From: Actinomadura rayongensis
Lineage (GTDB): Bacteria; Actinomycetota; Actinomycetes; Streptosporangiales; Streptosporangiaceae
Direction of reading: 5' to 3'
Assembly: GCF_009831215.1 (NCBI RefSeq)
Contig: NZ_WUTW01000002.1
Coordinates: 1,103,444 to 1,167,443, forward strand
DNA: 64,000 nt
In this document: piece by piece, positions 16,765 to 44,519 of the stretch
How positions within the stretch are numbered: position 1 is the stretch's first letter
How the letters are laid out: each line of letters begins with the position of its first letter
Notes under the pieces: model-generated
What the model saw: the letters and a program-made list of their open reading frames with translations, nothing else
Databases searched by the model: none
What the model was told of the DNA's origin: nothing
Translations under genes and position numbers: made by a program

Positions 16765-16930
16765 GGATCTCCCACAGATCGGACGACAAAGGACCCCGGC
16801 GGCCCCACAGGCTCACACCGGCGCCGACCAGACTTCCCGGCACACCTGCCATCACCGTACCCTCAACGCCCCCATACCCCACATTCCTCACCCCCTCCCA
16901 CAGCCCACGACGACCTCCACGGCCCACCCC

Positions 16931-17173
16931 GGCAGTCCGCAACTCCTCACGACCGTCCAGGGCTCACGACTGACTCCCGCAACTCACCACGGCCTACCGC
17001 GCGTCAGCACGGGACCCCGCGCATCACCACGGGGTACCGCGCATCACCGCTGGACGCCGCAGCTCGCCACAGGCCCCGCAACTCACAACGGGCTCCGCAA
17101 CTCACGACGGGCTCCGCAACTCACGACGGGCTCCGCAACTCACGACGGATTCCCGCAACTCACCACGGGACGC
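16931..17173. repeat. Degenerate 19-20 bp tandem repeat array starting in the tadC stop region
   Basis: About twelve copies of a 19-20 base unit (core CCGCAACTCACSACGG) run head to tail. Three neighbouring copies are exact: 17091-17109, 17110-17128 and 17129-17147. The copy nearest tadC (about 17155-17170) contains the last Trp codon and TGA of tadC, so the array seems to have grown from the gene's 3' end. The copies are contiguous, so this is not a CRISPR array. The remaining 165 bases towards nhaA hold no gene. Confidence 0.8.
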
Positions 17174-17900
17174 CGAGCGACGAGGCCAGGCCCGCGATCG
17201 ACGGAACGATCCCCAGCAGCACGAACGCCGGAAGAAAGCACGCGCCGAGCGGCGCGAGCACATGGACGCCGGCGGCGCGCGCCCGCTTCACCGCCTCCAC
17301 GTGCGCCTCGGCGCGGCGGTCGCGAGCCAGCCGGGTCAGGGACGGCGCCAGCGTCGCGCCGCTCGATGCGGCCCGCGCGACCGTCCGGGCCAGCGGCGCG
17401 AGCACGGGATCCGCCGCCAACGCACCCCACGCGTCCACCGGATCGGCCCCGAGCCGAATACGCGCTGCCACACCGTCGAACTCGTCGCCGAGCGGACCGG
17501 GCAACGCACCGGCGACCGCGCGCACGGCTTCCTCCCAACTCGTCCCCCCGCGCAGACAGGCGGCCAGCAGATCGACGGCGATCGGCAGATCCGCGACGAG
17601 TCGCGCCCGCCGACGCCGCTCATCGGCCGAGCCGAGCCGCCGGAACATCCGCGCCACGCCGAACGCGACACCAAGCCCGACAAACAGCCCCGTCGCACCG
17701 CCCACAACCAGCGCGCCAGTAACCCCGGCGAGCACAACGGCCCCGCGCCGCAACGCCCGATCACGACCCTCGTCCACCGGACGCACGACCTCGACCCGCC
17801 GAGCCGCCCGCCGAACACACCGCTCAGCGGCCCCCACCCCACGCGGCACCAAGAACCCGCTCACGGCGAAGCACCCCACGGCGATCCCCGCAGCAATCAC
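17160..17900 (-). CDS. tadC: TadC-like pilus assembly membrane protein (type II secretion F family)
   Basis: The 246-residue protein has hydrophobic segments at about residues 2-20, 55-85 and 220-240 and a cytoplasmic T2SS-F domain (ADLPIAVDLLAACLRGG near 105, then RAASSGATLAPSLTRLA near 175). TadC-type proteins form the inner-membrane platform of Flp pilus machines together with TadB and the TadA ATPase. A strong GAGGAGGTGAGGAT precedes GTG 17900. In most actinobacteria tadB and tadC abut or overlap; here 569 bases of degenerate repeats separate them. Confidence 0.85.
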   Translation of the reverse strand: MIAAGIAVGCFAVSGFLVPRGVGAAERCVRRAARRVEVVRPVDEGRDRALRRGAVVLAGVTGALVVGGATGLFVGLGVAFGVARMFRRLGSADERRRRARLVADLPIAVDLLAACLRGGTSWEEAVRAVAGALPGPLGDEFDGVAARIRLGADPVDAWGALAADPVLAPLARTVARAASSGATLAPSLTRLARDRRAEAHVEAVKRARAAGVHVLAPLGACFLPAFVLLGIVPSIAGLASSLGVPW

Positions 17901-18469
17901 ATCCTCACCTCCTCAGACTTCCATCCACCAAGATCAACGGCCCAATCACCCACCACCCCGCACAGCGCCTCTCCCACACCAAGCCCCAACCGCCCCGGCA
18001 GCCCCAACCGCTCTGGCAGCCCTAACTGCCCCAAGCTCAGGCAACAGCGCCCGCGACGAACCGGCAGCCCGGCGCTGGCCCGTGACCCGAGCGCGTACCC
18101 GAGCGGGCGCGCCCCTGCGGACCGGACCGGGACGCCAGGCCAAGCCGAGCCGTAACGCAAAGCCGCGTCCGAGCGAGCGCGTCCCCGCCAAACGGATCCA
18201 GAAGCCGATCCCGACCCCAGCCCGTGACGCGAGCGCGCGCCCAAGCAGGCGCGTCTCTACGAACCGGTTCGAGACACCAACCCGGGCCGCCTGGCCGCGA
18301 TGCGGGGCCGCGTCCGAGCGATCGCGTCCCTGCGAGATCGATTCGGACGCCAAGCTGGGGGGCTTGGCCATAGCGCGGAGTCGTGTCAGAGCGGGCCCAT
18401 CCCGGCAAGACGATCCGGACACCGAGCGTGGTCATGGGTCTCTGACTCGAGGTCGTGTCCGTGCGGACG
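17901..18469. repeat. Degenerate ~70 bp tandem repeats between tadB and tadC
   Basis: From the tadB stop (18470) to about 18050, five to six diverged units of about 70 bases follow each other. Each has a C-G-C-G-T-C-C-G-A-G-C-G core followed by a C-C-G-G-A-C-G-C-C-A-type element; examples start near 18120, 18190, 18265, 18330 and 18400. The unit nearest tadB overlaps its last codons. From about 17975 to 18050 a shorter CCCCGGCAGCCCCAAC-type unit recurs. Open frames across it give repetitive Arg/Gly/Ala peptides and are not genes. Confidence 0.65.
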
Positions 18470-19171
18470 TCATCGGACCTCCTCTGCTGCTCGCGCGAGC
18501 CGTCGCGTCCACCACAGGCCCGTCACGTCGAGGGACAGGCCGAGGGTCAGGCATGCTCCGCCGGGGAGCGAGCCGAAGAGGAAGCCGAGCGGGTCGGCGC
18601 CCATTCCGGCCGCCATGGCCAGGCCGAGCAGCGGCAGGGCGGCGAGCAGCCGTGCGGTGGCGCGCGGTCCCGCCAGCTGCGTCGCGATCTCCTGCCGTTG
18701 CGCCTGCTCGTCCCGCAGCGCCTTCGCGAGCCCGTCGAGGACGGAGCCGAGCGTTCCGCCGCGCTCCGCGCCGATCCGCCAGCACGCCGCGAGCAGCCGC
18801 AGTCCCTCCGCGCCGGGTGACGCCGCGAGGTGTTCGAGCCGTGCGAAGGGCGGGTCGGGACCGGACGTCGGCAACTGCCGGGCGACGCGGGGGTCGAGTC
18901 CGGCGACGGCGGTTGCGTACGCGTCGCCGGGCGTCCGCCCGACCGTGAGTTCGGCCGCCATCGCGTCGCACAGTTCGATGACGGCGACGCGCCACCGTTC
19001 GGGCTCGCGACGCCGGTCACGAATGGCGGCGACCCGCGTCCGCGCGGCGTCGGCGATCTCCCCGACGTTCGGCTCATGGCCCAGCGTCCGCGCGAGCCGC
19101 AGGACGGCCGGTCGAGGCCCCAGCAACGTCCAGACCGCTGCGGCCATGCACATCATCACCAGCATGATCAC
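18470..19171 (-). CDS. tadB: TadB-like pilus assembly membrane protein
   Basis: The 233-residue protein has a short N-terminal hydrophobic anchor, a T2SS-F-type cytoplasmic domain (LLAACWRIGAERGGTLGSVLDGLA) and C-terminal hydrophobic segments (LAALPLLGLAMAAGMGADPL and the next stretch). It pairs with TadC as the membrane platform of the Flp/Tad system. GTG 19171 lies 6 bases behind GGAGGG and is preferred over a TTG further up. It is about 80 bases downstream of tadA on the same strand. Confidence 0.85.
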   Translation of the reverse strand: MIMLVMMCMAAAVWTLLGPRPAVLRLARTLGHEPNVGEIADAARTRVAAIRDRRREPERWRVAVIELCDAMAAELTVGRTPGDAYATAVAGLDPRVARQLPTSGPDPPFARLEHLAASPGAEGLRLLAACWRIGAERGGTLGSVLDGLAKALRDEQAQRQEIATQLAGPRATARLLAALPLLGLAMAAGMGADPLGFLFGSLPGGACLTLGLSLDVTGLWWTRRLARAAEEVR

Positions 19172-19250
19172 GGTTTGTCCCTCCAAGTTGCGTCGATGGT
19201 CGAGCCGGGTCGCGCCCCGTCCGCACGACCCGCCGATCGGTGCGCGGAAG

Positions 19251-20423
19251 TCATGACGGCTCTCTCCCGGTCGTCCAGCGGCGGCCGAGACGGGTGGCCA
19301 GTGCGCGGGCGCCGGCGCCGGCGATCACCTCGCCAGCGGCCGTGAACGAGAACGCCGGGATCACCCCGACCAGGCCGTCGGACGCTCGGTCGAGCACACA
19401 GATCTCAGCGACGCGGCGCGCCCCGCCATCCGGCGCCCGGACCAGGTGGACGATCACGTCGAGCGCAGCGGCGAGCTGACTGTGCACGGCCTCCCGGCTC
19501 AGCCCCGCCGCGCACGCCAGCGCCTCCAGCCGCGCGGGAACGTCGGCGGCGGCGTTCGCGTGCAACGTGCCGCAACCACCCTCGTGGCCCGTGTTCAAGG
19601 CGTTCAGCAGGTCCGAGACCTCGATTCCACGCACCTCGCCCACCACCAACCGGTCCGGGCGCATCCGCAGCGCCTGGCGGACGAGATCGCGCAAGGTGAC
19701 GCCGCCCGCGCCCTCGATGTTCGGCGGCCGTGCCTCCAGGCGCACGACGTGCGGATGGTCGGGACGCAGCTCGGCGGAGTCCTCGACGAGGACCATCCGT
19801 TCGCCCGGATCGACGCGCCCGAGCAGACAGCTCAGCAGTGTCGTCTTCCCGGTGCCCGTGCCGCCGGTGATCAAAAAGGCGACCCGGGCGTCGATCAGCG
19901 CGGCGAGCAGGTCCGCGCCCTCCGGCGGGACGGTCCCGGCCGCGACCAGTTCGTCCAGCGTGAACGCGCGGCGGCGCGGAAGCCGCAGCGACAGGCACGT
20001 GCCGCCCGCCGCGACCGGTGGCAGGACGGCGTGGAGCCGCACACCGCCCGGCAATCGCGCGTCCGCGCAGGGCGCCGCGTCGTCCAGGCGGCGGCCGGCC
20101 GTGGCGGTGAGCCGCTGCGCGAGCCGCCGGACGCTCGCTTCGTCCGGGAAGCGCACGCCGGTCCGGGTGAGGCCGTCGCCCGCGTCGATCCACACCTCGT
20201 TCGGCCCGTTGACGAGGACGTCCGTCACGCCGGGCCGCCGCAGCAGCGGTTCGAGCGGTCCGGCCCCGACGAAGTCGGCGTGCAACGAATCGGTGAGGGC
20301 GAGCACTTCGCTGTCCCCGAGCAGCCGGTCCTCGGCCCGCACGGCCGCCGCGACGCGTCCCGCCGTCGGCTCGTCCCCGGTGTCCGCGAGCCGTCCCCGG
20401 ACGGCCTCCGACAATCTCCGCAC
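19251..20423 (-). CDS. tadA: TadA/CpaF-type secretion ATPase
   Basis: This is the motor ATPase of the Tad pilus or secretion machine. The 390-residue protein has the CpaF N-terminal domain (GPLEPLLRRPGVTDVLVNGP), Walker A G-G-T-G-T-G-K-T-T (about residue 187), an Asp box (VLVEDSAELRP) and Walker B with VVGEVRG. The His-box region GHEGGCGTLHA is also present. GTG 20423, 6 bases behind GAGGGAG, is chosen; the frame stays open for 38 more codons upstream (to 20537), so a longer protein is possible. It is preceded by ssd and followed by tadB and tadC, as in Rv3660c-Rv3657c of mycobacteria. Confidence 0.9.
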   Translation of the reverse strand: MRRLSEAVRGRLADTGDEPTAGRVAAAVRAEDRLLGDSEVLALTDSLHADFVGAGPLEPLLRRPGVTDVLVNGPNEVWIDAGDGLTRTGVRFPDEASVRRLAQRLTATAGRRLDDAAPCADARLPGGVRLHAVLPPVAAGGTCLSLRLPRRRAFTLDELVAAGTVPPEGADLLAALIDARVAFLITGGTGTGKTTLLSCLLGRVDPGERMVLVEDSAELRPDHPHVVRLEARPPNIEGAGGVTLRDLVRQALRMRPDRLVVGEVRGIEVSDLLNALNTGHEGGCGTLHANAAADVPARLEALACAAGLSREAVHSQLAAALDVIVHLVRAPDGGARRVAEICVLDRASDGLVGVIPAFSFTAAGEVIAGAGARALATRLGRRWTTGREPS

Positions 20424-20665
20424 GATATCTCCCTCGTCTCGACCCGCACCCGGCGCCCTGTCTGCACGTTCTCGCTGGCATTGGGGGCATTTGGCAATGA
20501 ATGTCTTGTCCATGCGTCCCCACGCGCGTTCGGACATGGCCGTTCGTGATCAGCCCGACGTCCATTGCGCCGACGGCCCATCCGCCCGTCCCCCTCGGTC
20601 CGGCCGCACACGGAATGTCGCAAGTTGACGCCGCGTTCCGGTAGCCGCCGCGACAGATCGCGCGG

Positions 20666-21730
20666 TCAGGCGGCCCTGCGCTGGACGGACGGCACCGATA
20701 TCGGGACCTCCGACAACAGGTAGTCGCAGAGCGCCCGCATCGGACCGCGCCGCAACCCCCGTTCCAGATCGCCGTCCTCCGTCAGGACCGCGAGCCGCTC
20801 GTCGCGCTCCAGCACCCCGGCGGCGGGCAGCGCCACGCACTCCGCCACGATGTCCGGCGTCAGCCCGGCGGGGGACGGCAGCCCGACGACGAGCCGCAGG
20901 TCCGCCGTCAGCTCGGCCAGCTCGGGCGCCCACCGCGCGGCGGCCATCGTCGGCCGGACCTCGGCGGGCACGAGCAGGAACGTCACCGCCGCGGTGCGCA
21001 ACGCCGTCTGGCCGACCAGGTCCGGACGGCGCGGAACGTCCACCACGGTCAGTTCGTAGCCGCGCACGGCCGCGTCCAGCACGGCGGACGCCGCCGCCTC
21101 CGGCACCGGGCCGCCCGGATCGCCGGTGAGCACGGACAGTGCGCCGACCCTGGGCAGCGACTCCCGCAGCAGCGACGCGCTCAGCCGCCCCCGCCGTTCG
21201 GTGAGCCCGGCCCAGCGGACGCCGTCGTCCTCCTCGACACCGAGCATCTGGTCGAGCCCGCCGCCGAGCGGATCGGCGTCGACGAGCAGGGTCCGCGTCC
21301 CGTCGCGGGCGGCGGTCATCGCGAGCGCGGCAGCGAGGACGGTCGTCCCGGCGCCGCCCCGCGCCCCGCACACGCACACCATCACCCCCTCCCCGCCGGC
21401 GGGTTCGGCGCTGGCGGCGAGCGCGTCGACCACGACCGGCTCGTCGGCGGGCAGGACGGCGACCTGCTGCGCGCCGACGTCGACGGCGCGGCGGTACAGG
21501 TCGGGGTCGGGGGCGCGGGCGACGAGGACGACGTCGCTCCGGTGCGGGACGCCCGCCAGGTCGTCGGCGAGGTCGTCCCCGACGAGGACGAGCCCGGGCC
21601 GCCGCCACCCGACCCGGGCCGCCGCGGACTGCCGGACGACCTCGGCCGAGGCGCCCGCCGCGGCGGCGAGTCGGAGCAGGTCGTCGCCGAGCGGGCCGTC
21701 GGCGGTCGCGATCAGCGCGGTGCTGTTCAT
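20666..21730 (-). CDS. ssd: Ssd/CpaE-like septum-site or pilus-localisation ATPase
   Basis: The 354-residue protein has an N-terminal receiver-like domain and a MinD/ParA-type ATPase domain with a deviant Walker A (C-G-A-R-G-G-A-G-T-T-V, about residue 122) and LLVDADPLGGGLDQ. Length and position match actinobacterial Ssd (Rv3660c) and TadZ/CpaE proteins, which place the Tad machinery or influence septum formation. ATG 21730 has a clear CTGGAGGGA ahead of it. The 242-base gap to tadA contains no obvious gene. Which of the two proposed roles applies cannot be read here. Confidence 0.8.
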   Translation of the reverse strand: MNSTALIATADGPLGDDLLRLAAAAGASAEVVRQSAAARVGWRRPGLVLVGDDLADDLAGVPHRSDVVLVARAPDPDLYRRAVDVGAQQVAVLPADEPVVVDALAASAEPAGGEGVMVCVCGARGGAGTTVLAAALAMTAARDGTRTLLVDADPLGGGLDQMLGVEEDDGVRWAGLTERRGRLSASLLRESLPRVGALSVLTGDPGGPVPEAAASAVLDAAVRGYELTVVDVPRRPDLVGQTALRTAAVTFLLVPAEVRPTMAAARWAPELAELTADLRLVVGLPSPAGLTPDIVAECVALPAAGVLERDERLAVLTEDGDLERGLRRGPMRALCDYLLSEVPISVPSVQRRAA

Positions 21731-21857
21731 GATCCCTCCAGGAGGTTCGGAGGGCTCCAGCATCGGACGGCGCGCGGCGCGAGCGAAAGTCCGTCCCCAA
21801 CCTGTGGATAACCGGGTGGGCGGGCCGCTGCCGAACCGCCCACCCGGTCCCAAAATG

Positions 21858-21892
21858 GGCGACCCCCGCCGGGGGGGAGAGCGGGGGTCGCC
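21858..21892. terminator. Strong hairpin in the ssd leader region
   Basis: GGCGACCCCCGC (21858-21869) and GCGGGGGTCGCC (21881-21892) form a perfect 12-bp stem with an 11-base loop, about 130 bases upstream of the ssd start. It may be a terminator for RNA entering from upstream, or a leader structure or attenuator of ssd. No T tract follows on either strand. Confidence 0.5.
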
Positions 21893-22003
21893 GTGCGGTC
21901 CGACTCCGGGGGGGTAGAGCCGGACCGTTTCTCAGGAAAGTCTTAGGGGCGTAGATCACTACGGGCGCACGCCAGTAGTACCTACAGGAGACGCAAAGTC
22001 ACC

Positions 22004-22018
22004 GCCTACAGTGTAGGC
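22004..22018. promoter_or_regulatory. Perfect 7-bp palindrome, possible operator
   Basis: GCCTACA and TGTAGGC are separated by a single G. The site lies in the AT-richer part of the ssd upstream region, about 275 bases from the start codon. The cognate regulator is unknown. Confidence 0.35.
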
Positions 22019-22383
22019 AGATACAACATATGCTGCCCGACTGTTACGACTTCCGTCGAGCCACAATGTCACCCCTGGGGCGACTTTTCTTCTTGATCAG
22101 CGGGATCGGCTGCCCTCCGTGATCGGGAATCTCGGGCACGTCGGACAAATCAACCACGGAACCTATTGATCGTTACCGTCCGCGCCGGGAAAAACAAACG
22201 ATCACCGACCGTGATCACTAAACGGACTGCCACTTCGGCACACTCAGGCACGAACCAGGCGTTTCGCTAGTCAATTCGCCGGGAATTCGCCCAGCTCATC
22301 CGGGATGCCCGAGGCGCCGTCGCCCGCCCCGACCAGCGGGGAAAGCCTTGACCAGCGTCCGGTCAACCCGCTGGACGCCCCGC

Positions 22384-23001
22384 TCAACCGCGGACGTCGA
22401 GACCGAGCGCGACGGCGAGCGCCATCGCCTGCACCGGGTCGATGACCGCGCCCCGCAGCCCGACGGTCGCCGGATCCATCGCCGGCAGTACCGAACCCCG
22501 GAGATCACACCCCGACAGATCCGCCTGATGCACCCACGCCCCCGACAGATCGCAGCGCACCACCGTCGCGCCCGCCAGCCGCGCGCCGGTGAGGTCGGCT
22601 TCGCGCAGCCGGACGTCCGCGAAGTCGGCCCGCCGCAGGTCGGCCCCCGGGAGCCCGACGAACGACCAGTCGCCGCCGCGGACCTTCATGAGGTCGTGCG
22701 AGCAGTCGTCGAACATCGACCCGACGACCTTGCACCCGGTGAACGTCGCGTCGAAGAAGGAGCAGCGTACGAACGTGCAGTTGACGAACGCCCCGTCCGT
22801 GTGCGCGGACACGTTGAACCGGACGTTCCGGAACACGCACTCGGTGAAGACGGCCCCGTCGCCGGCAGCCTCGGTCATGTCGACGTCCGAGAACAGCACG
22901 CGCGTGTGCTCCTCGCCGCTCAGATCGCGCGAGTCCCAGTCGGCGGAGCGGACGGTCGTCTCGGTGGGGGCGGCAGGCGCCCCGGTGCGTCGTTCGGCCA
23001 C
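22384..23001 (-). CDS. Pentapeptide repeat protein
   Basis: The 205-residue protein carries two runs of A(D/N)LXX-like pentapeptides: a Cys/Phe-rich set (FTECVF, FVNCTF, FFDATF, FTGC) at about residues 45-105 and a canonical set (ADLRRADFADVRLREADL) at about 120-165. Such repeats fold into a right-handed quadrilateral β-helix; some family members mimic DNA and protect gyrase, but nothing here shows that role. GTG 23001 is chosen because the repeat domain is complete from there. It lies 35 bases downstream of the Fic-like gene on the same strand. Confidence 0.85.
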   Translation of the reverse strand: MAERRTGAPAAPTETTVRSADWDSRDLSGEEHTRVLFSDVDMTEAAGDGAVFTECVFRNVRFNVSAHTDGAFVNCTFVRCSFFDATFTGCKVVGSMFDDCSHDLMKVRGGDWSFVGLPGADLRRADFADVRLREADLTGARLAGATVVRCDLSGAWVHQADLSGCDLRGSVLPAMDPATVGLRGAVIDPVQAMALAVALGLDVRG

Positions 23002-23036
23002 GCGACCGACCGTACGCGGTACCGGTGACAGACCCG

Positions 23037-23828
23037 TCAGCCGCGCATGAACGCCTCGCAGATGGCCTGCGAGTCGCGTGCGGCGGCGGCCGTCGCGGCG
23101 GCACAGTGCGCCACCCACGCCGCCACCCCGTCCTGACCTCCCGCGGCATAACCGCGCAACGCTTCACCGTAGGCGCCCGACAGTTCGGCATGGCCCGTCT
23201 CGGGCGCGGTGAGCGACTTCGGGTCGAAGCCGCGCGCGACGAGCGTGAGGCGCTGCGCGGCGCGGGCGATGATCCCGTCCCCCCAGCCGAACGGCCGCAG
23301 CGTCGCCAGCTCGCCGTGGACGATCGCCGCTACGACCAGCGCCGGAGCCTTCGTCGGCGCCGTCAGCAGGCCGCTGAGCTGGTCGAGGCGGGCCGCGACC
23401 ACCGCGGGCGGCGGCGGGTCGCCGAGCCCGGCCGGGTCCGTGGACGGCTTGCCCTCGGCGCGCGGACGGCCGAGCGCGTCGGCGTCCACCGCGTCCGCCG
23501 CGGCGAGGACGTGCAGCCGCGCGAGGACCTGGCGGGGGGCCTGCCGCCACGTCTCGGCGAGCGTCCCGAGTTCGGCGGACACCCGCAGGGAGCCCTGCAC
23601 GATGGGGTCGGACGGGTTCTCGGTCGTACGCAGCTCGTCCAACGTGACGGACGCGCCTTCGAGCACGGCGGATGCACGCGCGCCCCTCAGTGCCGACTCG
23701 GTCGATACCTCGGCGCTACGACGCCGCAGGATGCGATGGCCGAGGAGACGGTCGACGGCCTTGCGCGCGTCGGCGACGGCGTCGGCCACACCGGGAAGGT
23801 CCGCAACGGAGGCGAGGGCATCGGTCAC
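23037..23828 (-). CDS. Degenerate Fic/DOC-like protein
   Basis: The 263-residue protein has an N-terminal segment with ARASAVLEGASVTLDELR, as in Fic N-terminal domains, and a later LRPFGWGDGIIARAAQRL that aligns with the Fic core motif H-P-F-x-x-G-N-G-R-x-x-R. The catalytic His and the second Arg-Asn elements are replaced, so AMP transfer by the standard mechanism is unlikely. It may be a structural or regulatory relative. GTG 23828 fits the domain start; the frame is open further upstream. It is divergent from acsA and probably co-transcribed with the pentapeptide gene. Confidence 0.6.
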   Translation of the reverse strand: MTDALASVADLPGVADAVADARKAVDRLLGHRILRRRSAEVSTESALRGARASAVLEGASVTLDELRTTENPSDPIVQGSLRVSAELGTLAETWRQAPRQVLARLHVLAAADAVDADALGRPRAEGKPSTDPAGLGDPPPPAVVAARLDQLSGLLTAPTKAPALVVAAIVHGELATLRPFGWGDGIIARAAQRLTLVARGFDPKSLTAPETGHAELSGAYGEALRGYAAGGQDGVAAWVAHCAAATAAAARDSQAICEAFMRG

Positions 23829-24059
23829 GGTGCAGACCCTATGCGGTTCGCGCCGCCGATCTGACTGCGGGCGGTTGGATAGGCACAGCAGAGAAGGCAA
23901 CAGCCCGGACGGGTGTGGCGCGCATCACATAGCATCCCGTTCGGAGTCAGGAGCCACCGGCGCCCCCGGCCCGCCACAGGGGCGTTGCCTTGTACTGCGC
24001 GCGAACTCCTGTTGGAGTGGGTCGGCCGGGAACTTCACCCTCGTCAGCAAGGAGTACGT

Positions 24060-26027
24060 GTGAGCGAGAGCCAGAAAACACTGTCGAACCTCCTGCGGGA
24101 GACGCGGCGGTTCCCCCCGCCGGCCGAGCTCGCCGAGTCCGCGAACGTGACCGCGGCGGCCTATGAGGAGGCCGCGAACGACCGGCTGGGTTTCTGGGAG
24201 CGCCAGGCCGACCGCCTGGCGTGGTCCAAACGGTGGGACGAGGTCCTGGACTGGACGAACCCGCCGTTCGCCCGATGGTTCGTCGGCGGTGAACTGAACG
24301 TCGCCTACAACTGTGTGGACCGCCATGTGGAGGCGGGCCTGGGTGCCAAGGTCGCCTACCACTGGGAGGGTGAGCCCGGTGACACCCGCACCCTTACGTA
24401 CGCCGACCTCCGCCGCGAGGTGAGCAAGGCCGCCAACGCGCTGCTGGAGCTGGGCGTCCGCAAGGGCGACCGGGTCGCGATCTACCTCCCGATGATCCCC
24501 GAACTGCCGATCGCGATGCTGGCGTGCGCGCGCATCGGCGCGACCCACTCGGTGGTGTTCGGCGGGTTCTCCGCGGACGCGCTGCGCACCCGGATCGACG
24601 ACGCGCAGGCCCGTGTGGTGATCACCGCGGACGGCGGGTACCGGCGCGGCAAGCCGTCCGCGCTGAAGCCGACCGTCGACGAGGCGGTCGCGGACGCACC
24701 GAGCGTCGAGCACGTCCTGGTGGTCCGGCGCACCGGTGAGGACGTCGCCGAGACCGACCGCGACGTGTGGTGGGAGGACGTGGTCGAACGCCAGTCCGAC
24801 CAGCACACGCCCGAGCCCGTGGACGCCGAGCACCCGCTGTTCATCCTGTACACGTCCGGGACGACCGGGAAGCCCAAGGGGATCCTGCATACGTCCGGCG
24901 GCTACCTCACGCAGACGGCCTACACCCACTGGGCGGTGATGGACCTCAAGCCGGAGAAGGACGTGTACTGGTGCTCGGCCGACATCGGCTGGGTGACCGG
25001 GCACTCTTACATCGTCTATGGTCCGCTGGCCAACGGTGCGACCAGCGTCATGTACGAGGGCACCCCCGACACCCCGCACCGGGGCCGCTGGTGGGACGTC
25101 ATCGCCAAGTACAAGGTGACGACATTCTATACGGCGCCGACTGCCATCCGGACGTTCATGAAGTGGGGCGACGACATCCCGGCGCGGTACGACCTGTCGT
25201 CGCTGCGGGTTCTCGGCTCCGTGGGAGAGCCGATCAACCCGGAGGCGTACGTCTGGTACCGCGAGCACATCGGCGCGAACCGCACGCCGGTGGTGGACAC
25301 GTGGTGGCAGACCGAGACCGGCGCGATCATGATCAGTCCGCTGCCCGGCGTGACCGAGGGCAAGCCGGGCGCGGCGATGCGTCCGCTGCCGGGCATCGTC
25401 GCCGACGTCGTGGACGACCATGGTGAGTCGGTACCGAACGGCGGCGGTGGGTTCCTCGTGCTCAAGGAGCCGTGGCCGTCGATGCTGCGCACCATCTGGG
25501 GCGACGATGAGCGGTACGTCAAGACGTACTGGTCCCGGTTCGACGGCATGTACTTCGCCGGGGACGGTGCCAAGAAGGACGAGGACGGCGACCTGTGGCT
25601 CCTCGGCCGCGTGGACGACGTCATGCTCGTGTCCGGGCACAACATTTCGACCACCGAGGTGGAGTCCGCGCTGGTCTCGCACCCGAAGGTCGCCGAGGCG
25701 GCCGTCGTCGGATCGACCGACCCGGTGACGGGGCAGGCGATCGTGGCGTTCGTCATCCCGCGCGGCGCGGCGGGCGAGGAGGTCGAGGGCGAGGCGTTCT
25801 TGCAGGAGCTGCGCGAGCACGTCTCCCGCAAGCTCGGGCCGATCGCCAAGCCGCGCCAGATCATGATCGTCCCCGAGCTGCCCAAGACCCGCTCGGGCAA
25901 GATCATGCGGCGGCTGCTGCGCGACGTGGCGGAGAACCGGAGCATCGGCGACGTGTCGACGCTCGCCGACGGCACGGTCATGGACCTGATCTCGGCCAAG
26001 CTCCCCGACGCGAAGCCTGAAGACTGA
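24060..26027 (+). CDS. acsA: Acetyl-coenzyme A synthetase
   Basis: AcsA activates acetate to acetyl-CoA through acetyl-AMP. The 655-residue protein has the AMP-binding P-loop [11 protein letters not shown] (about residue 263), [10 protein letters not shown] (about 413), and the C-terminal [11 protein letters not shown] whose Lys is the site controlled by reversible acetylation in this family. The GTG start lies 6 bases after AAGGAG. An upstream in-frame extension to 23913 has no support. A strong rho-independent terminator follows. Position next to the tad genes matches other actinobacteria. Confidence 0.95.
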
Positions 26028-26039
26028 ACGCTCTAAGGC

Positions 26040-26082
26040 GGGGCGGAATGCGGCTGTACGTCCGCGTTCCGCCCCGTTTTTT
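26040..26082 (+). terminator. Rho-independent terminator of acsA
   Basis: A 14-bp stem (26040-26053 with 26062-26075, one G-U pair) with an 8-base loop is followed by TTTTTT (26077-26082), starting 13 bases after the acsA stop. Confidence 0.9.
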
Positions 26083-26188
26083 CGTGCCCGCTTATCCACA
26101 GAACTGAGTTCGACTTTCTCTCGACGTCGGCCGTGAGCAGGCTGAAGTCCGGGCGCCGAGCCGTGCGCCCCGGAGGGAGGGAGAAGTC

Positions 26189-26371
26189 ATGCGCAGGTGG
26201 AAACGGTGCCGGAGCCACGCGCGGGACCTCGGCATGTCCACGGCCGAGTACGCGATCGGGACGGTCGCGGCGGCGGCCCTCGCCGGGATCCTCTACAAGG
26301 TCCTCACGACGGACGCGGTGAGAACCGCCTTGCTGGGCGTCGTGCAGCAGGCGCTCCGGCTCGGGGAATGA
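26189..26371 (+). CDS. DUF4244 small membrane protein of the tad locus
   Basis: This 60-residue protein begins with a basic segment and then M-S-T-A-E-Y-A-I-G-T-V-A-A-A-A-L-A-G-I-L, a Flp-pilin-like class III signal with Glu at the +5-like position and a hydrophobic stalk. It matches the DUF4244 family seen in actinobacterial tad loci (Rv3656c/3657c region) and is the probable major pilin. A strong GGAGGGAGGGAG precedes the ATG. Its TGA overlaps the ATG of tadE (ATGA), so the two are co-translated. Confidence 0.85.
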   Translation: MRRWKRCRSHARDLGMSTAEYAIGTVAAAALAGILYKVLTTDAVRTALLGVVQQALRLGE

Positions 26372-26751
26372 GGCGCCGTCGTGACGCGGGCATGGCGACG
26401 GCCGAGATCGCGATGGCGCTCCCCGCGCTGGTCCTGGTGGCGGCGATCGTGCTGTGGGGTGTGGCGGTGGCGTCCGTTCGACTCGCCTGCTCCGATGCCG
26501 CCCGCGGCGGCGCGCGGGCCGCCGCGCGCGGCGAGTCGCTCGCCGCGGTGCGGTCGCTCGTGGAGCACGCCGTGCCGCCGGGAGCGAGGGTGACCGTGCA
26601 CCGTGACGGTGAGGCGTCGCGGGTGGAGGTGGCCGTTCCGGTTCCGCCTCCCGTCGCGGCGGGCCTTCCGGCACTGACCGTGACGGCGCGCGCGGTGGCC
26701 GCCACCGAACCGGGAGCCGACTCCGTCCCGGTAACCGACCTCTCCCCTTGA
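26368..26751 (+). CDS. TadE-like pseudopilin
   Basis: The 127-residue protein has a short basic leader, then M-A-T-A-E-I-A-M-A-L-P-A-L-V-L-V, a prepilin-like cleavage region with Glu and one transmembrane helix. A small extracytoplasmic domain with Ser/Ala/Arg-rich sequence follows. TadE proteins are minor pseudopilins of the Flp system. The ATG overlaps the previous stop. A G-rich hexamer-like repeat array starts right after the TGA. Confidence 0.85.
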   Translation: MRRRRDAGMATAEIAMALPALVLVAAIVLWGVAVASVRLACSDAARGGARAAARGESLAAVRSLVEHAVPPGARVTVHRDGEASRVEVAVPVPPPVAAGLPALTVTARAVAATEPGADSVPVTDLSP

Positions 26752-27250
26752 CGGACGGGACACGGCCCCCGGCGGCCGGCCCGGGTCCCTCACACCGGGG
26801 GACCCGGGCTCCCACCGCCATCCGCACGGGCACGGGCCGCGCGGCGCCGCGCGCGAGGACGGGCACGGGGACTGGCGCGGGGACGAGCGCGAGGCCGGGC
26901 AGCGGCGAGGGCACGGGCGTAGGAACAGGCAGGAGGACGGGCGCGGGCACGAGGACGGGCGCGACACAGGCGCGGGCACAGGCGCGAGGACAGGCATGGA
27001 GGCGGACGCGGGAACGAGCGCGGGAACGAGCGCGGGAACGAGCGCGGGAACGAGCGCGGGAACGAGCGCGGGAACGAGCGCGGGAACGAGCGCGGGAACA
27101 AGCGCAAGGACGGGCATGGGCGAGAGGGCGGGACGAGGCCGGGCACAGACGCGGACACGGGCGTAGGTACGGGGGCGTAGGCACGGGCACGAGTGCGAGG
27201 GAGCAGGTGCGAGGGCGGGCTTGGGCGCGAGGGCGGGCACGGGCGTAGGC
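26752..27250. repeat. Post-stop repeat array of tadE with seven perfect 12-mers
   Basis: The whole 500 bases are built from variants of a six-base unit (GGGCAC, GGACGG, GGGCGC, GAGCGC). At 27011-27094 seven perfect copies of GGAACGAGCGCG follow each other, with a variant eighth copy. Translation gives monotonous Arg-Glu-Arg-Ala peptides in several frames, typical of a low-complexity repeat and not of a gene. The rest of the spacer up to 27529 is G-rich and holds a hairpin. Confidence 0.8.
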
Positions 27251-27315
27251 GCGGATGGGGCGGGGCGGTCTCTGCCTGCCGTTCTGGTGCGCGGGAGGAG
27301 TTCGCCGTTGGTCAG

Positions 27316-27338
27316 ACGGCCCTGCGTCAGGGCCGTCG
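27316..27338. terminator. Hairpin between tadE array and next tad gene
   Basis: GACGGCCCTG and CAGGGCCGTC form a perfect 10-bp stem with a 3-base loop (27316-27325, 27329-27338). It may end tadE transcription; no T tract follows. Confidence 0.45.
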
Positions 27339-27529
27339 TGGATGAGGACGAACGGAGTCGCGGGCTTTGCGGACGGGCGTGATCCGCTTTCACGGCGTTG
27401 TCCGTGGCCCGTCGTTCCCTCGCATCGGCGGGACGCAGTGGGGTGCGTCCGCGTCGGCGGGATGCGGTCGATGCGGCGGATGCGGTGAACGTAGTCAGGA
27501 GACAGTCTGAGCAGGGAGGAGAGTGAAGA

Positions 27530-27895
27530 GTGAGGCTAGGGGACGATCGCGGGTCGGGGACGGTGTGGGTCGTGGCCTTCATGGGTGTCGTCTGGTTCGT
27601 GGGGGTGGCTGCCATGGCCGTCGGCGGTATCCGGGGGGTTCGGGCGCGGGCGGAGTCGGCGGCGGATCTCGCCGCGTTGGCCGGGGCGGGGCAGACAGGC
27701 GGGGACGTCCGGATGTGCCGCAGGGCGTGGGACGTCGCGGTCGCCTCGGGTGGGCGGCTGGCTTCGTGCGCCGTTCACGGCGGGATCGTGGATGTTGCGG
27801 TGGTGGCGAGCGTGCCGATGCCGTTGGGGTTGGGCGAGCGGCGGATCGTCTCGCGGTCGCGGGCTGGTCCCGTCCGGAGCGACCGCGTACCCTGA
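27530..27895 (+). CDS. Rv3654c-like TadE-like protein of the tad locus
   Basis: The 121-residue protein starts R-L-G-D-D-R-G-S-G-T-V-W-V-V-A, then one hydrophobic helix and an ARAESAADLAALAGA segment. This combination marks the 'helicase/secretion neighbourhood TadE-like' family (Rv3654c). Two Cys pairs (CRRAW, LASCAV) may form a disulphide outside the cell. GTG 27530 follows GGAGGAGAG. In most relatives it sits directly after tadE; here nearly 780 bases of repeats separate them. Confidence 0.8.
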   Translation: MRLGDDRGSGTVWVVAFMGVVWFVGVAAMAVGGIRGVRARAESAADLAALAGAGQTGGDVRMCRRAWDVAVASGGRLASCAVHGGIVDVAVVASVPMPLGLGERRIVSRSRAGPVRSDRVP

Positions 27896-28106
27896 GCACG
27901 GTCCGTTGCACTTCCTGTCAATAGGTGCGAAGTTGAGGGGTGTTAGCTGCGTCTTTGTCATCGTTCCGTGACGTCAAACGCCTGACGGTGGGTTACGCTG
28001 CGGTAATCCCAAGGCAGTCGACGCACGCGGTGACCCCCGCCGCCCCCCAATCCGCAGCGCGACGCCGGAGCACCGTCGGCAGGCCATCCGAGGAGGGACT
28101 GAGATC

Positions 28107-29672
28107 GTGACCGCGATTCGCAGGATCGGTGCGGTGATGCTCGTTGCACCCCTCGCGATGGGCATCCCGGTCTTCGTCGGCGCCGCGCCCGCCTCGGCGG
28201 CCACGGCCGTCACGGCCCCGGCGAACGGCGCGATCGTCCGCAGCGGCAGCTCCGTGACGGCCAAGGCGACGTTCGACGGCTCGTTCGTGCCCGTGTCCGG
28301 CGAGCTGCACGTCACGACGCCCGCCGGCGGCGATATCCTGGTCGATCGCGGCATGGCGTTCCTCGGCCCGGCCAGCCTTTCGGGCAACGTCGACATCCGG
28401 CGCAACGGCAAGTACACGTTGACGGTGCGCCGGGCCGGACGCACGGCATCGACCAGCACGTTCACCGTCCGGATCCCACCGGCGCGGCCGAGCGGGCTGT
28501 CGGCGACGGCGGCGGGCGGCAAGCTCAAGGTGAGCTGGGCGCGCGGCGGTGAGAGCGACATCAACGGCTACAACGTCAACGCGTCGGGCGTCGGGTCGCA
28601 GTCCGGGGGCGTGAGCAAGTTCTGCTCGGGGGCCGCGTGCTCCGCGACGTTCGCCGTCGGGACGACCGGGACCGTGAAGGTGAGCGTCCTGGCCAAGCGG
28701 CCCAACGGCATGGGCGGGACGGTGTCGTCGGCCGCCGCGTCCACGAGCGTCACGATCAAGGGCGGGACTGGTGGCGGAGGCGGCGGGTCCGCGCCGCTGC
28801 CGACGTCCGGTGCCGTGCCGCCGCTGCCCACGACCGGCAACGCGCCGCAGACGCCGCTGACGAACCTCAACGGGCAGTCGCCGGTCACGCTGCCGTCCGT
28901 CCAGCCGGACGGCGCGACGCCCGGGTACGCCTACCCCGCTCCGCAGGTCGCCGGGCAGAGCACGCCGACCGCCGACAACGCCGTTCCGATGGGGCCCATC
29001 GAGTGGAGCCGGAACATCGGGATCGCACTCGTCCTGCTGGTGATCGCCGCGCACCTCGGGATGTGGACGCGACGGCTCCGCGTCGCGCAGGCCGGCGTCA
29101 GCAGCAAGGGCATGGCGGCACGGATGGCGCGCAGCGGGACCGGCCGCCGGCGGGTGAGCAAGACGCGGGAGAGCATCTCCGAGGCGGAGACGCTGGCGCG
29201 CACGGCGGTGCTCACGCTCGGAAAGCCGAAGGGCGCGGCGGACGCCAAGCCCGCCGCCGACACCGAACCCGCTCCGACCGGCATGTTCCGCAAGCCCGAA
29301 GGCGACGTGAAGATGCCCCGGTTCGACGCGCCGCCGGAGAAGCCCGCGTCGCCTGAGGCGTCCGCACCGGCTGGGCCGACTGCGCCGTTCGACCCGTCCA
29401 CGCCGTTCGACCCGCCCGCGCTGTCCGGGCCGTTCGCGCCGTCTGAACCGTCCCCGCTGGCTGAGCCGCTCACGCCGCCCGCTCCCGCCGTCGCCGCTCC
29501 GCAGCAGCCGAACGAGTCCACGATCTTCGCGGCGGCCAAGCCGGCCGCCAAGCCCGTCCGTCGCCGTCCCGCGAAGCTCGGCAAGCCGAAGGGCGGTCGC
29601 GGCGCTCGTCCGTCCCGGACCCCGGTCGGTGTGCCCGGCCCCGACGACCGCAAGTCCCGCAACGAGCTGTAG
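28107..29672 (+). CDS. Secreted or membrane-anchored fibronectin-III-like protein with Pro-rich tail
   Basis: The 521-residue protein has an N-terminal signal peptide ending near A-P-A-S-A-A, a β-rich domain (to about 115) and a fibronectin-type-III-like domain (RPSGLSATAAGGKLKVSW onwards, about 130-215, with two Cys). A Gly/Pro/Thr linker, one transmembrane helix (about 308-325) and a long cytoplasmic tail rich in Pro, Ala and Lys follow. GTG 28107 lies behind GAGGAGGGA. The topology suggests an envelope protein with an outward binding domain and a disordered inner tail; its partner is unknown. It may belong to the neighbouring pilus system, which is inference. Confidence 0.75.
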   Translation: MTAIRRIGAVMLVAPLAMGIPVFVGAAPASAATAVTAPANGAIVRSGSSVTAKATFDGSFVPVSGELHVTTPAGGDILVDRGMAFLGPASLSGNVDIRRNGKYTLTVRRAGRTASTSTFTVRIPPARPSGLSATAAGGKLKVSWARGGESDINGYNVNASGVGSQSGGVSKFCSGAACSATFAVGTTGTVKVSVLAKRPNGMGGTVSSAAASTSVTIKGGTGGGGGGSAPLPTSGAVPPLPTTGNAPQTPLTNLNGQSPVTLPSVQPDGATPGYAYPAPQVAGQSTPTADNAVPMGPIEWSRNIGIALVLLVIAAHLGMWTRRLRVAQAGVSSKGMAARMARSGTGRRRVSKTRESISEAETLARTAVLTLGKPKGAADAKPAADTEPAPTGMFRKPEGDVKMPRFDAPPEKPASPEASAPAGPTAPFDPSTPFDPPALSGPFAPSEPSPLAEPLTPPAPAVAAPQQPNESTIFAAAKPAAKPVRRRPAKLGKPKGGRGARPSRTPVGVPGPDDRKSRNEL

Positions 29673-30100
29673 CAGTCCCACCCCCGTCCAGTCCCGCCAA
29701 GCGGGGAGAGATGCGGTCCCACGCGCATGGGCGCGTAGCGTCGCCGATCCGGTTGATCTCCCGTTGTTCGGACGCGGTCACGCGCGCGTGAGCGCGCAGC
29801 CCGTGGTGCTCCTTCGCGCGTCCTGACGTTCGCGCAGTCCCGCTCGCGTGAGCGCATCGTGATCCGTGACCTCCTGCACGCCCAACTGGAGCACGCGGCC
29901 CCGCGCACGCGGGCGCGTAACACCGGTGCTGGCCGGGCTGTGGCCGCCTGAGAAGCCTTCCGTCGGCGCGCGGTCTTGAGCCCGGAGGCGTACGTGAGTG
30001 CGTAATCGTTCAGGGTCGGGAGCATGCTGCTGGATGTCGGCGTGTCTCGCGCGGGCGGGTGCTTAACGGGCTGCGCTTGTCCGGCCTCTTGGAAGGGTGA
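29673..30100. repeat. Degenerate ~60 bp repeat array after the FnIII gene
   Basis: From just after the TAG, diverged units of about 60 bases follow one another. Each has a C-G-G-T-C-C-C/A-C-G-C-G-type head and a GCGxGxGxGCGC semi-palindrome; examples are near 29712, 29774, 29835 and 29892. No terminator with a T tract is visible. Confidence 0.6.
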
Positions 30101-30575
30101 GTGCGGCGGTGTGTGAAGGTACGGCGAGCTGCAACGTGCCTTGGGTCGGCCAGGGCGTGCGGCGTCCAGCCGGTATGTGGATCAGCGACGAGATATTGCC
30201 GCTTCGTCCCAGGCCTGCCTGATTTGCTCGCCAGCTTCCGCGGGTGTCTGAGTGCTCATTTGGCTTGGGCTGGGCCGTGCGCGGTCCGCTTGCTCGGCGG
30301 GTGGGCGTACTGCTGGGGGTTCGCGAATTGGTTAGTTATGCGGTGATGTGGGTTCTTGGGGGCTGTTGGGTGGGGGCTTGCGGGGTGGATGCGGGTGGTT
30401 ACTGGGTGCTTTCGTGAGTGGAATGGCTGGTCAGAGAGGTGTTGGTGGACGAGTTCGTCGTTCGGGTGGGGTTTTGATCATGAAGTGATGGCGCTGGGCG
30501 GGGATGGGGGCTAGGCTCCCGAACCGGCAGAGAGTTCTCCCGGTTTGTCCCGGTAACGGAGAGGAGACGCTCCGC
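30101..30575. other. Non-coding G+T-rich stretch
   Basis: No gene is supported. The plus strand is unusually rich in G and T (for example 30300-30480), and GC is lower than in the neighbouring genes. The last 60 bases must contain the promoter of the LapA-like gene, but no clear consensus is seen. Confidence 0.5.
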
Positions 30576-30956
30576 ATGATCTTTTTGGGGCTTGTGCTCG
30601 TGGCGGTCGCTGTGTCGACCGGCGTGGCCGTCGTCATGGAGAATTCCGATCCGGCGACGCTGTCGGCCTTTGGGAAGAGTGTCCCGGGTGTCGACAATGA
30701 GTGGCAGGTCTTCTTGGCCGGTGCCGTGGTCGCTCTCCTGTTCGTGCTGGGGGTGAGCGTCGCCATGTCCGGCATGCGGCGTTCGCTTGACCTGCGGCGC
30801 GAATTGCGCGATCTGCGGGACGAGCATGAGGAGGTGCTGTCCACGATGGAGATGGAGAAGCGGCAGCTTCAGCGTGAGTTGGCCAAGGCGCGGCAGAACG
30901 GTGGCGGTGCGGCTCCGGCCGTCCCCGCGCAGCGTGTTGCGCCACCGCTGGGCTGA
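30576..30956 (+). CDS. LapA-domain-like small membrane protein with coiled coil
   Basis: The 126-residue protein has two transmembrane helices (about residues 2-22 and 46-66) joined by a short outer loop, then a charged heptad-like helix (about 72-110) and a Pro/Ala tail. The layout fits the lipopolysaccharide-assembly-protein-A-like (DUF1049) family; in Gram-positive bacteria its role is unknown. ATG 30576 follows GGAGAGGAGACG. The last nine codons are part of the first unit of a tandem repeat array that continues beyond the stop. Confidence 0.7.
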   Translation: MIFLGLVLVAVAVSTGVAVVMENSDPATLSAFGKSVPGVDNEWQVFLAGAVVALLFVLGVSVAMSGMRRSLDLRRELRDLRDEHEEVLSTMEMEKRQLQRELAKARQNGGGAAPAVPAQRVAPPLG

Positions 30957-31345
30957 CCCTTCTGGCGTCGACTGCCTCGCGGTCACCGGCCGGCTTCTAT
31001 TCCCCGGCCGTCCTCCGCAGCGTGTTGTGCCGCGCTCGGCTGGCCTTGGCGGCGTCGACTGCATCGCGGTCACCATCGACGTCTGTTCCGGCGGTACCCC
31101 GCAGCGCGTCGTGCCGCGCTCCGCTGGCCTTGCTGGCGTCGACTGCATCGCGGTCACCGCCGACGTCTGTTCCGGCGGTGACCCGCAGCGTGTTGTGCCG
31201 CGCTCGGCTTGCTGGCGTTGACTGCATCGCGGTCACTGGCGGCGTCTGTTCCGGCTGTTCCCGTGCAGCGTGTTGTGCCGCCGCTCGGATGGCCCCGCTG
31301 ACGCCGACTGCCTCGCGGTTGCTTGCCGGCGTCTGTGGGGTTGTG
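30929..31345. repeat. Five tandem copies of an ~84 bp unit starting inside the LapA-like gene
   Basis: Units begin with GCAGCGTGTTGTGCCGC at 30929, 31017, 31101, 31185 and 31265, giving spacings of 88, 84, 84 and 80 bases. Each also contains GGCGTCGACTGCATCGCGG. The first copy starts in the last nine codons of the LapA-like gene and runs through its stop, so the coding 3' end looks like the founder. The array fills the space up to the convergent helicase gene. Confidence 0.85.
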
Positions 31346-33707: not shown

Positions 33708-33950
33708 CAGGTTTTCAGTGTGCCAGCATGGGCAAAACCAGGGGAACGCCTCGGCGCCGACGGCCTCACCCCCCTGCCATGACCGGCAGATCGCCAGGTC
33801 AGACGGGATGGCGCGAAGTTTCGCCTGTCTGGGCGATAACGTGCGTCCAGGACGCCGGAGCGTGGTTGAATCTCGGGCGAAGTTCCGTTCGCCGGGCCGC
33901 CCGCCGCGGTATGAGCGGAATCGAATGTGCTGTACGGCGCTGGAGGATCT

Positions 33951-34304
33951 GTGGACCTGAAGGTGAACGACTACACCACCGACGATGGCCTGACCGTCAT
34001 CACGGTGGAGGGCGAGATCGACGTCTACACGGCGCCGAAGCTTCGCGAGAAGCTGATCGACCTGGTGAACAAGGGCAAGTTCCACCTGCTGGTGGACATG
34101 GAGAAGGTCGAGTTCCTCGACTCGACCGGTCTCGGCGTGCTCGTCGGCGGGCTCAAGCGCGTCCGTGCCCACGACGGTTCGCTGGAGCTCGTCTGCACCC
34201 AGGAGCGCATCCTCAAGATCTTCCGGATCACGGGGCTCACCAAGGTCTTCGGCATTCACACCTCGATCGCCGAAGCCGAGGAGAAGCGCAAGGGCGCCAA
34301 GTAG
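33951..34304 (+). CDS. bldG: BldG-like STAS-domain anti-anti-sigma factor
   Basis: The 117-residue STAS protein has [15 protein letters not shown], the phosphorylatable Ser in [13 protein letters not shown] and [16 protein letters not shown], all nearly identical to what I know of Streptomyces BldG. BldG-type proteins control sigma factors for development and stress by partner switching with an anti-sigma kinase. GTG 33951 follows GGAGG closely. The next gene, 15 bases on, encodes the matching kinase-like partner. The neighbouring helicase on the other strand is the same as in Streptomyces (SCO3550-3548). Confidence 0.95.
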
Positions 34305-34319
34305 GCGGCTCCCGCTGAG

Positions 34320-34790: not shown

Positions 34791-35020
34791 AGCACCCGGC
34801 CGACGGCCGCGCCGAAGCTCCCGCTCAACGGCGCGCGCCGACGGCCGTCCCGCTCCCCTGTCGCGCACCCTGCCCGGTGAGGCCGACACCGCCCCACCGG
34901 GCAGCCGACGCGCGCCACTAACCCACGCCCGCCCGCCGCGCGGCTGTTGATCCCGGGCCGCGACGCGGGACGGCGTTCGCGCCGGGCGTCGCCGCCCGCA
35001 CGGCGCCTCGGAGCGCGGCG

Positions 35021-43193: not shown

Positions 43194-43194
43194 G

Positions 43195-43557: not shown

Positions 43558-43579
43558 CGAGCACCCCCGCACAAACGGC

Positions 43580-43599
43580 CTTCTACCCATCCGTAGAAG
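43580..43599. promoter_or_regulatory. Operator-like inverted repeat of the second blaI-like gene
   Basis: CTTCTAC (43580-43586) and GTAGAAG (43593-43599) are perfect inverted copies with a 6-base spacer. The half-site differs from the TACTAC sites at 40490 and 42216, which suggests a separate specificity for the second repressor. Confidence 0.6.
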
Positions 43600-43619
43600 A
43601 ACAGTTTGACATGGGTGTC

Positions 43620-44476: not shown

Positions 44477-44519
44477 TGCTCACAGGGCTTGCACTCTCAG
44501 CGTGTGTCGCCTTGTGAGC

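Follow-up and report, generated by a model that had tools for sequence, protein, structure and literature searches.

Tandem-repeat arrays at gene 3' ends in Actinomadura rayongensis: probable independent minisatellite births in weakly constrained flanks

Within one 14-kb region of the 64,000-nucleotide stretch of Actinomadura rayongensis DNA analysed here (the window), several genes appear to be followed directly by degenerate tandem arrays, which raises the question of whether DNA is copied by a process aimed at gene 3' ends, is kept there for a function, or persists there because such flanks are free to change. We detected arrays with Tandem Repeats Finder and an autocorrelation score, with 100 dinucleotide shuffles of each array as controls. 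An array of 19-bp units (16916..17169, minus strand) lies 3' of and across the stop of tadC (17160..17900, minus strand; Pfam T2SSF), with the stop codon (17160-17162) inside the first unit; it scored 62 against a shuffle maximum of 17. Downstream of tadB (18470..19186, minus strand; also T2SSF) is a degenerate 70-73 bp array (17982..18410, minus strand) with an 18-mer at its far end, which scored 35 against a maximum of 20. The gene named tadE from its position (26368..26751, plus strand; no Pfam match) is followed by a 12/24/36-bp array with about eight near-perfect central 12-mers (26824..27245, plus strand; 124 against 25). The LapA-like gene (lapA; 30576..30956, plus strand) adjoins an 84-bp array that begins within its last 14 codons (30914..31319, plus strand; 93 against 21). 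The FnIII protein gene (28107..29672, plus strand) is followed by a weak 60/61-bp periodicity (29710..29917, plus strand) that was marginal, at 18 against 16. The names of these last two genes come from the preliminary description, and neither gene had a Pfam match at E 0.001.

Four of the five arrays described after these genes (tadC, tadB, tadE, and lapA) are thus clear relative to shuffles, and that of FnIII is marginal. The description of the five genes as consecutive did not hold, given that tadA, cpaE, and acs are interspersed among them; the 3' gaps of these three genes all fell below the listing threshold of 22, with tadA and cpaE each scoring 9, and none of six other intergenic stretches of the region exceeded its own shuffle maximum. 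Inspection revealed no sequence common to the array units, in agreement with the shared architecture and unrelated sequences originally noted. Four strong arrays in 14.4 kb compare with a maximum of three 3'-flanked arrays per 14.4 kb in a contiguous 500-kb stretch of the same genome. The region is therefore dense but not extraordinary, and we rejected the notion of a special local cluster.

We compared the last 30 nt of each gene together with 25 nt of flank with the rest of its array, using 500 shuffles. The tails of tadC and lapA matched their own arrays above all 500 shuffles, whereas the observed score was reached by 203 shuffles for tadB, for which no tail was detectable in the array, by 97 for tadE, and by 368 for FnIII. 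When only the last 40 coding nucleotides were considered, lapA remained above all 500 shuffles but tadC did not (23 reached its score). At least three arrays (tadC, tadB, and lapA) had been said to contain the last codons of their genes, and two of the five did so when tested. A putative origin from the host gene's own end is supported by sequence comparison for tadC and lapA but is unsupported in this test for tadB, tadE, and FnIII. The proposal that each array was born from the 3' end of its own gene thus applies to some arrays, including others in the genome and genus, but found no support for these three. In one such case elsewhere, a 17-mer unit consists of the last 12 nt of the gene, with the stop, plus flank. 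In a wider test, the gene tail outperformed 40 control tails against the adjoining flank at 18 of 166 array-bearing ends (4 expected), of which at least three are doubtful as a result of coding-like repeats or runs of N. The same kind of flank match was found for 6 of 128 start-side heads (3.1 expected). The control tails and the 400 array-free ends in this test were random samples.

The same intergenic regions in relatives, whose comparison had been suggested at the outset, carry different arrays or none. In a close relative (G011; median protein identity with the window genome, G000, of 94.8%, one genome being compared per species), the tadB array is absent and window positions 17943-18448 have no counterpart; the tadC end also bears a 19-mer array, but of a differently homogenised 19-mer; and the tadE end bears other arrays, of 10- and 20-mers. 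No array like that of lapA was found in G011, A. atramentaria, or A. xylanilytica, and the same gene ends in other Actinomadura have different arrays or lack them. We scored gain or loss when an array reached a score of at least 25 in one species and less than 22 in the other, and its gap was longer by 40 bp or more. In a set of 167 conserved gaps, G000 and G011 showed eight such differences (4/20 convergent, 4/95 tandem, and 0/52 divergent), and all eight gaps with a one-species array and length gain adjoin a gene 3' end, although one (A 280022) may lie inside an uncalled gene. Two further gaps differed in score: the divergent gap A 21184 scored 25 in G011 and 12 in G000 with a length difference of only 19 bp, too small for it to be scored, and the tandem gap A 120176 scored 51 in G000 and 17 in G011 even though the G011 gap is the longer. 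The median difference in gap length between the two species was 53.5 bp for convergent gaps, compared with 4 bp for tandem and 2 bp for divergent gaps. One pair of convergent genes that overlap by 4 bp lies 108 bp apart in G011, with an 18-mer array in between, and an ATGA overlap is parted by a 39-mer array in G000.

The 3' end of tadE was a hotspot, with arrays in 15 of 38 loci; six other ends at this locus together gave 21 of 237 (Fisher p = 6.5e-6). Of the 15, L173 and L170 (with L177 as a further candidate) probably owe their scores to coding sequence that lies downstream. In the window and in L156, an array located between lapA and the helicase gene can score for both genes, and the 237 exclude nhaA, acs, and fn3 (two or three loci each, without arrays). 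The arrays differ between species, and those of L183 and L158 copy the tadE tail and stop. A coding array, represented by a 166-residue open reading frame running from the tadE stop, is unlikely, the units in relatives being 14, 20, and 104 bp.

Insertion of a dispersed mobile or family repeat (MIRU-, REP-, or MITE-like) 3' of genes would account for the tandem units in a stop/start overlap at A 398637 in G000, and a comparison of 40 arrays from G000 and G011 gave 12 pairs that matched at E 0.01, although these may include the same gap in both species. Several units, however, hold the tail of their own host gene, and the lapA array, the one array searched genome-wide, matched only itself in the 6.87-Mb genome. 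We therefore rejected a dispersed repeat for lapA and regard it as highly improbable for the arrays in general. The window genome is a 15-contig draft, and misassembly of repeats or GC-rich sequence might in principle have created arrays. The units have nevertheless diverged from one another, arrays are present in the single-contig genomes G020 and G006, and they occur 3' of tadB and lapA in a chromosome record (NZ_CP041244.1, L171), so that an artefact is hardly credible.

We took a census of gaps of 60-1500 bp, those of other lengths being dropped, with an array defined by a score of at least 25 and genes called by a home-made codon-usage caller in place of outside annotation. Arrays were found in 7/43 convergent, 16/184 tandem, and 1/99 divergent gaps in samples of G000; in 9/56, 9/212, and 3/132, respectively, in G011; and in 12/56, 63/386, and 6/123 in 65 Actinomadura loci (convergent versus divergent, Fisher p = 0.001, 0.001, and 0.002, respectively). 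Arrays in tandem gaps were closer to the 3' end in 13 of 16, 7 of 9, and 43 of 63 instances, respectively. The bias was weak or absent in G020 (3/12 convergent, 4/68 tandem, 2/18 divergent) and G006 (2/14, 0/41, 3/26). The lapA array itself is missing from the G000 count; lapA probably did not pass the cut-off of the gene caller, which would have left a gap of >1500 bp. Window positions 43001-55500 (the island) were excluded from the counts, as were 6 of the 71 fetched Actinomadura loci (each <10 kb), a set that includes paralogues and several loci per species. Coding sequence may account for some of the called arrays, and of 506 tiles of coding sequence (400 bp each), 23 also reached a score of 22. 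Best-scoring periods were multiples of three in more than one-third of arrays (23/45 and 44/80). The same architecture thus occurs throughout the genome and in other Actinomadura, at odds with a local mechanism confined to 14 kb.

Arrays occupy the positions of terminators, and some part genes that overlap in a sister species, as might be expected of selected 3'-UTR elements acting as terminators, RNA stabilisers, or insulators between convergent genes. Predicted RNA folding was nevertheless no more stable for 40 arrays (z = -0.57) than for 60 randomly sampled array-free 3' flanks (z = -1.29), leaving a terminator or structured RNA unsupported. GC skew ranged from -0.36 to 0.64, revealing no common strand bias, the units are mostly unrelated in sequence, and many orthologous ends in close relatives are free of arrays. 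The rate per 3' end was also not higher for convergent than for tandem gaps in G000 (7/86 versus 16/184) or the 65 loci (12/112 versus 63/386), although it was in G011 (9/112 versus 9/212). The suggestion of a selected 3'-UTR function thus found no support, and we consider it very unlikely.

Breaks or template switching at termination sites, or polymerase collisions, might instead direct tandem duplication to gene 3' ends. In favour of selection rather than targeting, the density of arrays in divergent gaps climbed with distance from start codons (0.63 to 1.78 per 10 kb in the two genomes, on only four and two arrays). With the 150 bp adjoining starts left out, however, divergent gaps still held fewer arrays for their length (7 in 31.5 kb) than convergent gaps did (32 in 51.0 kb), so that promoter avoidance of that size is not the whole explanation. 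The different arrays at tadE in many species also point in this direction, as does an excess of array-bearing 3' ends around the Actinomadura tad/lapA locus (74/496 versus 49/754 in samples of four genomes; Fisher p = 1.5e-6, in a comparison that pools draft genomes of many species under a single gene model). On the other hand, divergent gaps could also be emptied by long regulatory regions and uncalled genes, and the proportion of tail-including arrays is about that of random placement, roughly estimated at ~12% for a 40-bp unit in a 200-bp gap, with an observed excess of ~8%. We therefore consider such targeting unlikely. That Actinomadura possesses a duplication process that prefers 3' ends, copies terminal codons with the stop, lengthens gaps, parts overlaps, and repeatedly strikes ends such as that of tadE is similarly doubtful; such a preference would perhaps extend to other very GC-rich actinobacteria. 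The limited sample taken from G039, which belongs to another family, also points toward 3'-end preference.

The arrays resemble bacterial minisatellites, or VNTRs, in their degenerate head-to-tail units of tens of bases, intergenic position, and homogenised cores, as well as in gain, loss, and change of length or unit between close relatives. They differ in that births are seen across a sampled genome, with the single-copy state in a sister species, and in that some units correspond to the last codons and stop of the host gene. The MIRUs of mycobacteria are a single dispersed sequence family with tandem units at stop/start junctions. The arrangement at A 398637 is similar, but it was seen once and not at the five window arrays; unlike MIRUs, the lapA array is present at a single locus, and certain arrays can be recognised as duplicates of the end of the gene they follow. 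Short tandem duplication during break repair can generate a first copy of tens of bases without any repeat being present beforehand. Of 28 genomes searched, 26 encode Ku and 27 had no match to MutS_V. The absence of MutS and presence of NucS and Ku would fit such an origin, yet they are common to the related actinobacteria searched rather than specific to the genus.

We think it likely that the arrays are young minisatellites, born again and again, and independently, in 3' flanks under weak constraint, by tandem duplication followed by slippage, with selection shaping their accumulation at 3' ends. A stretch of ~10-140 bp near a gene 3' end would be duplicated head to tail. Where it includes the last codons and stop, the gene would stay intact in the first copy and the stop codon remain in the first unit, so that duplication across a stop would be harmless. 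Duplication over an ATGA stop/start overlap, or over overlapping convergent ends, would leave one gene served by the first copy and its neighbour by the last, and would push the two genes apart. Replication slippage or unequal exchange may then multiply, homogenise, and erode the copies. Births within promoters or coding frames would mostly be purged by selection, and survivors would accumulate at 3' ends. Given that 3' flanks tolerate tandem duplications and that length turnover is fastest in convergent gaps, most of the data can be accounted for with no process directed at 3' ends; selection, rather than targeting, would be the cause of the bias.

Tandem copying 3' of genes has occurred separately in different species, probably because the DNA there is free to change and not because it performs a special job. 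The arrays make the emergence of new intergenic DNA in bacteria countable, with genes that overlap or nearly touch in one species being separated by an array in its sister, and with some arrays readable as copies of their own gene end. If births are aimed at 3' ends, a link between termination and tandem duplication would be directly testable. If they are not, 3' flanks would serve as ready neutral sites for the measurement of duplication rates, and the arrays would be candidate strain markers.

Five genes in the window, tadC, tadB, tadE, the FnIII gene and lapA, had each been described as followed directly by a tandem array, and comparison of autocorrelation scores with those of 100 dinucleotide shuffles per region bore this observation out, in the case of FnIII just barely. 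Scores were 62 for tadC (shuffle maximum, 17), 35 for tadB (20), 124 for tadE (25), 18 for FnIII (16) and 93 for lapA (21), and none of six other intergenic stretches of the region exceeded its own shuffle maximum in this test. Tandem Repeats Finder placed arrays behind tadC (16977–17169, 19 bp), tadB (17982–18032, 18 bp), tadE (26824–27245, rows with periods of 12 to 65 bp) and lapA (30914–31319, 84 bp); the source genome comprises 6.87 Mb in 15 contigs and, judged by named homologues, is that of an Actinomadura. The core of the tadE array (27007–27105) is near-perfect, with 98% matches across about four 24-mers, which suggests recent expansion. Upstream of the cpaE/tad genes lies a 6C RNA (RF01066, 62.4 bits) at 21854–21929 on the reverse strand. 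Repeats of 129 bp (43 codons) also occur within a gene at 335–1340, which, from its unit length, likely encodes a putative beta-propeller repeat protein. The stretch at 44237–54997 is probably an acquired island, given that the caller trained on codon usage recovers hardly any genes there and that its long ORFs have lower third-position GC.

In the preliminary description at least three arrays seemed to derive from the end of their own gene, a number that fell to two in a shuffle test. When the last 30 nt of each gene plus 25 nt of flank were aligned to the remaining array, only tadC (27; shuffle maximum, 19) and lapA (35; 21) exceeded all 500 shuffles, and tadB, tadE and FnIII did not. Restricting the query to the final 40 coding nt left lapA above 500 of 500 shuffles, and 23 of 500 reached the tadC score. 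The lapA array starts at 30914, inside the last 14 codons of the gene (stop, 30954–30956), and the tadC stop (17160–17162) lies inside the 19-bp array.

In the sister species, G011, identity is 93% in both lapA and TadC, and the alignment across the region runs at 84–95%. The tadB array is cleanly absent from it (window 17943–18448 has no counterpart), the end of lapA is single copy, and the gap between lapA and the helicase gene measures 115 bp, versus 411 bp in the window. Behind tadE, 10- and 20-mers replace the 12-mer array of the window, and the 19-bp tadC arrays of the two species are each homogenised to a different 19-mer. In a further Actinomadura genome, G003, a 70-bp periodicity extends over no fewer than the final 45 nt of tadC, stop included, and no lapA array reaches threshold; A. 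flavalba carries different arrays behind tadB (8/16-mer) and lapA (31/59-mer), and the lapA–helicase gap of A. xylanilytica is nearly nil. A given gene end therefore acquires different arrays across species. The tadB–tadA interval of G011 (L063, G011:C1:990001-1010000, behind tadA) holds about 350 bp without window counterpart and no reported tandem repeat, and a 109-bp array of about 2.5 copies (L064, G011:C1:1015482-1015796) lies just past the stretch syntenic to window 31403–34916.

The tadE 3' end is a hotspot: of the 38 loci where it could be read, 15 scored at least 25 within 350 nt, compared with 21 of 237 other ends (tadC 4/35, tadB 5/35, tadA 0/33, cpaE 3/31, lapA 7/70, helicase 2/33; Fisher p = 6.5e-6). 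Cross-species matches suggest that, of these 15, L173 and L170 (perhaps also L177) owe their score to coding sequence further downstream, leaving 12 or 13 tadE loci. By eye, units at L183 and L158 copy the tadE tail and stop.

Gaps genome-wide, delimited with our own codon-usage caller, were counted as array-bearing at a score of at least 25. Arrays were found in 7/43 convergent, 16/184 tandem and 1/99 divergent gaps of the window's own genome, G000 (711.5 kb sampled), in 9/56, 9/212 and 3/132 of G011 (880 kb sampled), and in 12/56, 63/386 and 6/123 across 1.17 Mb of lapA neighbourhoods from 65 Actinomadura loci, with Fisher p values for convergent versus divergent gaps of 0.001, 0.001 and 0.002, respectively. 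Corresponding counts were 3/12, 4/68 and 2/18 in G020 and 2/14, 0/41 and 3/26 in G006, both single-contig Actinomadura genomes, and 0/5, 1/41 and 1/32 in G030 and 2/9, 3/43 and 0/27 in G039, from other families. A clear 3' bias therefore marks the G000/G011 pair and the locus set; in G020 and G006 the bias is weak or missing, and it may not be confined to Actinomadura. Among 506 coding tiles, each of 400 bp, 23 had a score of at least 22. Best-scoring periods were divisible by three in 23/45 arrays of G000 and G011 and 44/80 of the Actinomadura loci, more than one third, which suggests that part of the called arrays is coding or coding-like.

The comparison drew on 273 neighbouring gene pairs conserved between G000 and G011, which yielded 167 gaps measuring 60 bp or more in at least one of the two species: 20 convergent, 95 tandem and 52 divergent. 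A birth, defined as a score of at least 25 in one species and below 22 in the other with at least 40 bp of extra length, was recorded in eight gaps: four convergent, four tandem and no divergent, with one tandem case (G000 position A 280022) that may lie inside an uncalled gene. Two more one-sided gaps fell outside this definition: A 21184, which is divergent (G011 score 25, 19 bp longer), and A 120176, which is tandem and where the array-bearing gap is the shorter one. In one convergent pair the genes overlap by 4 bp in G000, and in G011 a gap of 108 bp carrying an 18-mer array lies between them. A 39-mer array in G000, with the stop in its first unit and the start in its last, opens what is an ATGA overlap in G011. 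By eye, the terminal codons and stop of the gene itself recur in 17-bp units at A 440034 and in units of about 50 bp at A 239032, where the best period is 115. Median length differences were 53.5 bp for convergent, 4 for tandem and 2 for divergent gaps, and differences above 80 bp occurred in 9/20, 18/95 and 4/52, respectively (convergent versus divergent, Fisher p = 0.0007).

A process aimed at 3' ends is a live rival to neutral duplication. With all seven genome sets pooled, the last 45 nt of each gene were compared with the flank that follows. This tail outmatched 40 control tails at 18 of 166 array-bearing 3' ends (expected, 4), at least three of them doubtful (coding-like repeats, runs of N), and at 12 of 400 sampled array-free ends (9.8); on the start side the counts were 6/128 with an array (3.1) and 16/400 in the array-free sample (9.8). 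By our own estimate, a 40-bp unit placed randomly in a 200-bp gap would take in part of the tail about once in eight times, so tail copies alone need no 3'-directed process. Array coverage is 0.2–0.4% within 25 nt of starts and 2–3% within 25 nt of stops, climbing to about 10% at 150–300 nt. When 150 bp next to each start are excluded, arrays per 10 kb in the pooled Actinomadura sets number 6.27 (convergent), 4.13 (tandem) and 2.22 (divergent). Promoter avoidance accounts for part of the convergent/divergent difference; the remainder could reflect regulatory regions that reach further, genes missed by the caller or a genuine 3' preference.

Arrays showed no extra structure relative to array-free flanks and no common GC skew, and their GC content was 0.77 versus 0.69 in those flanks. 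No MutS_V match turned up in 27 of 28 related genomes searched, and NucS was found in 28/28 and Ku in 26/28. This gene content leaves room for slippage that goes unrepaired, or for duplications from break repair, without demonstrating either. A first duplication would be followed by slippage. We conclude in favour of neutral duplications that survive at 3' ends.
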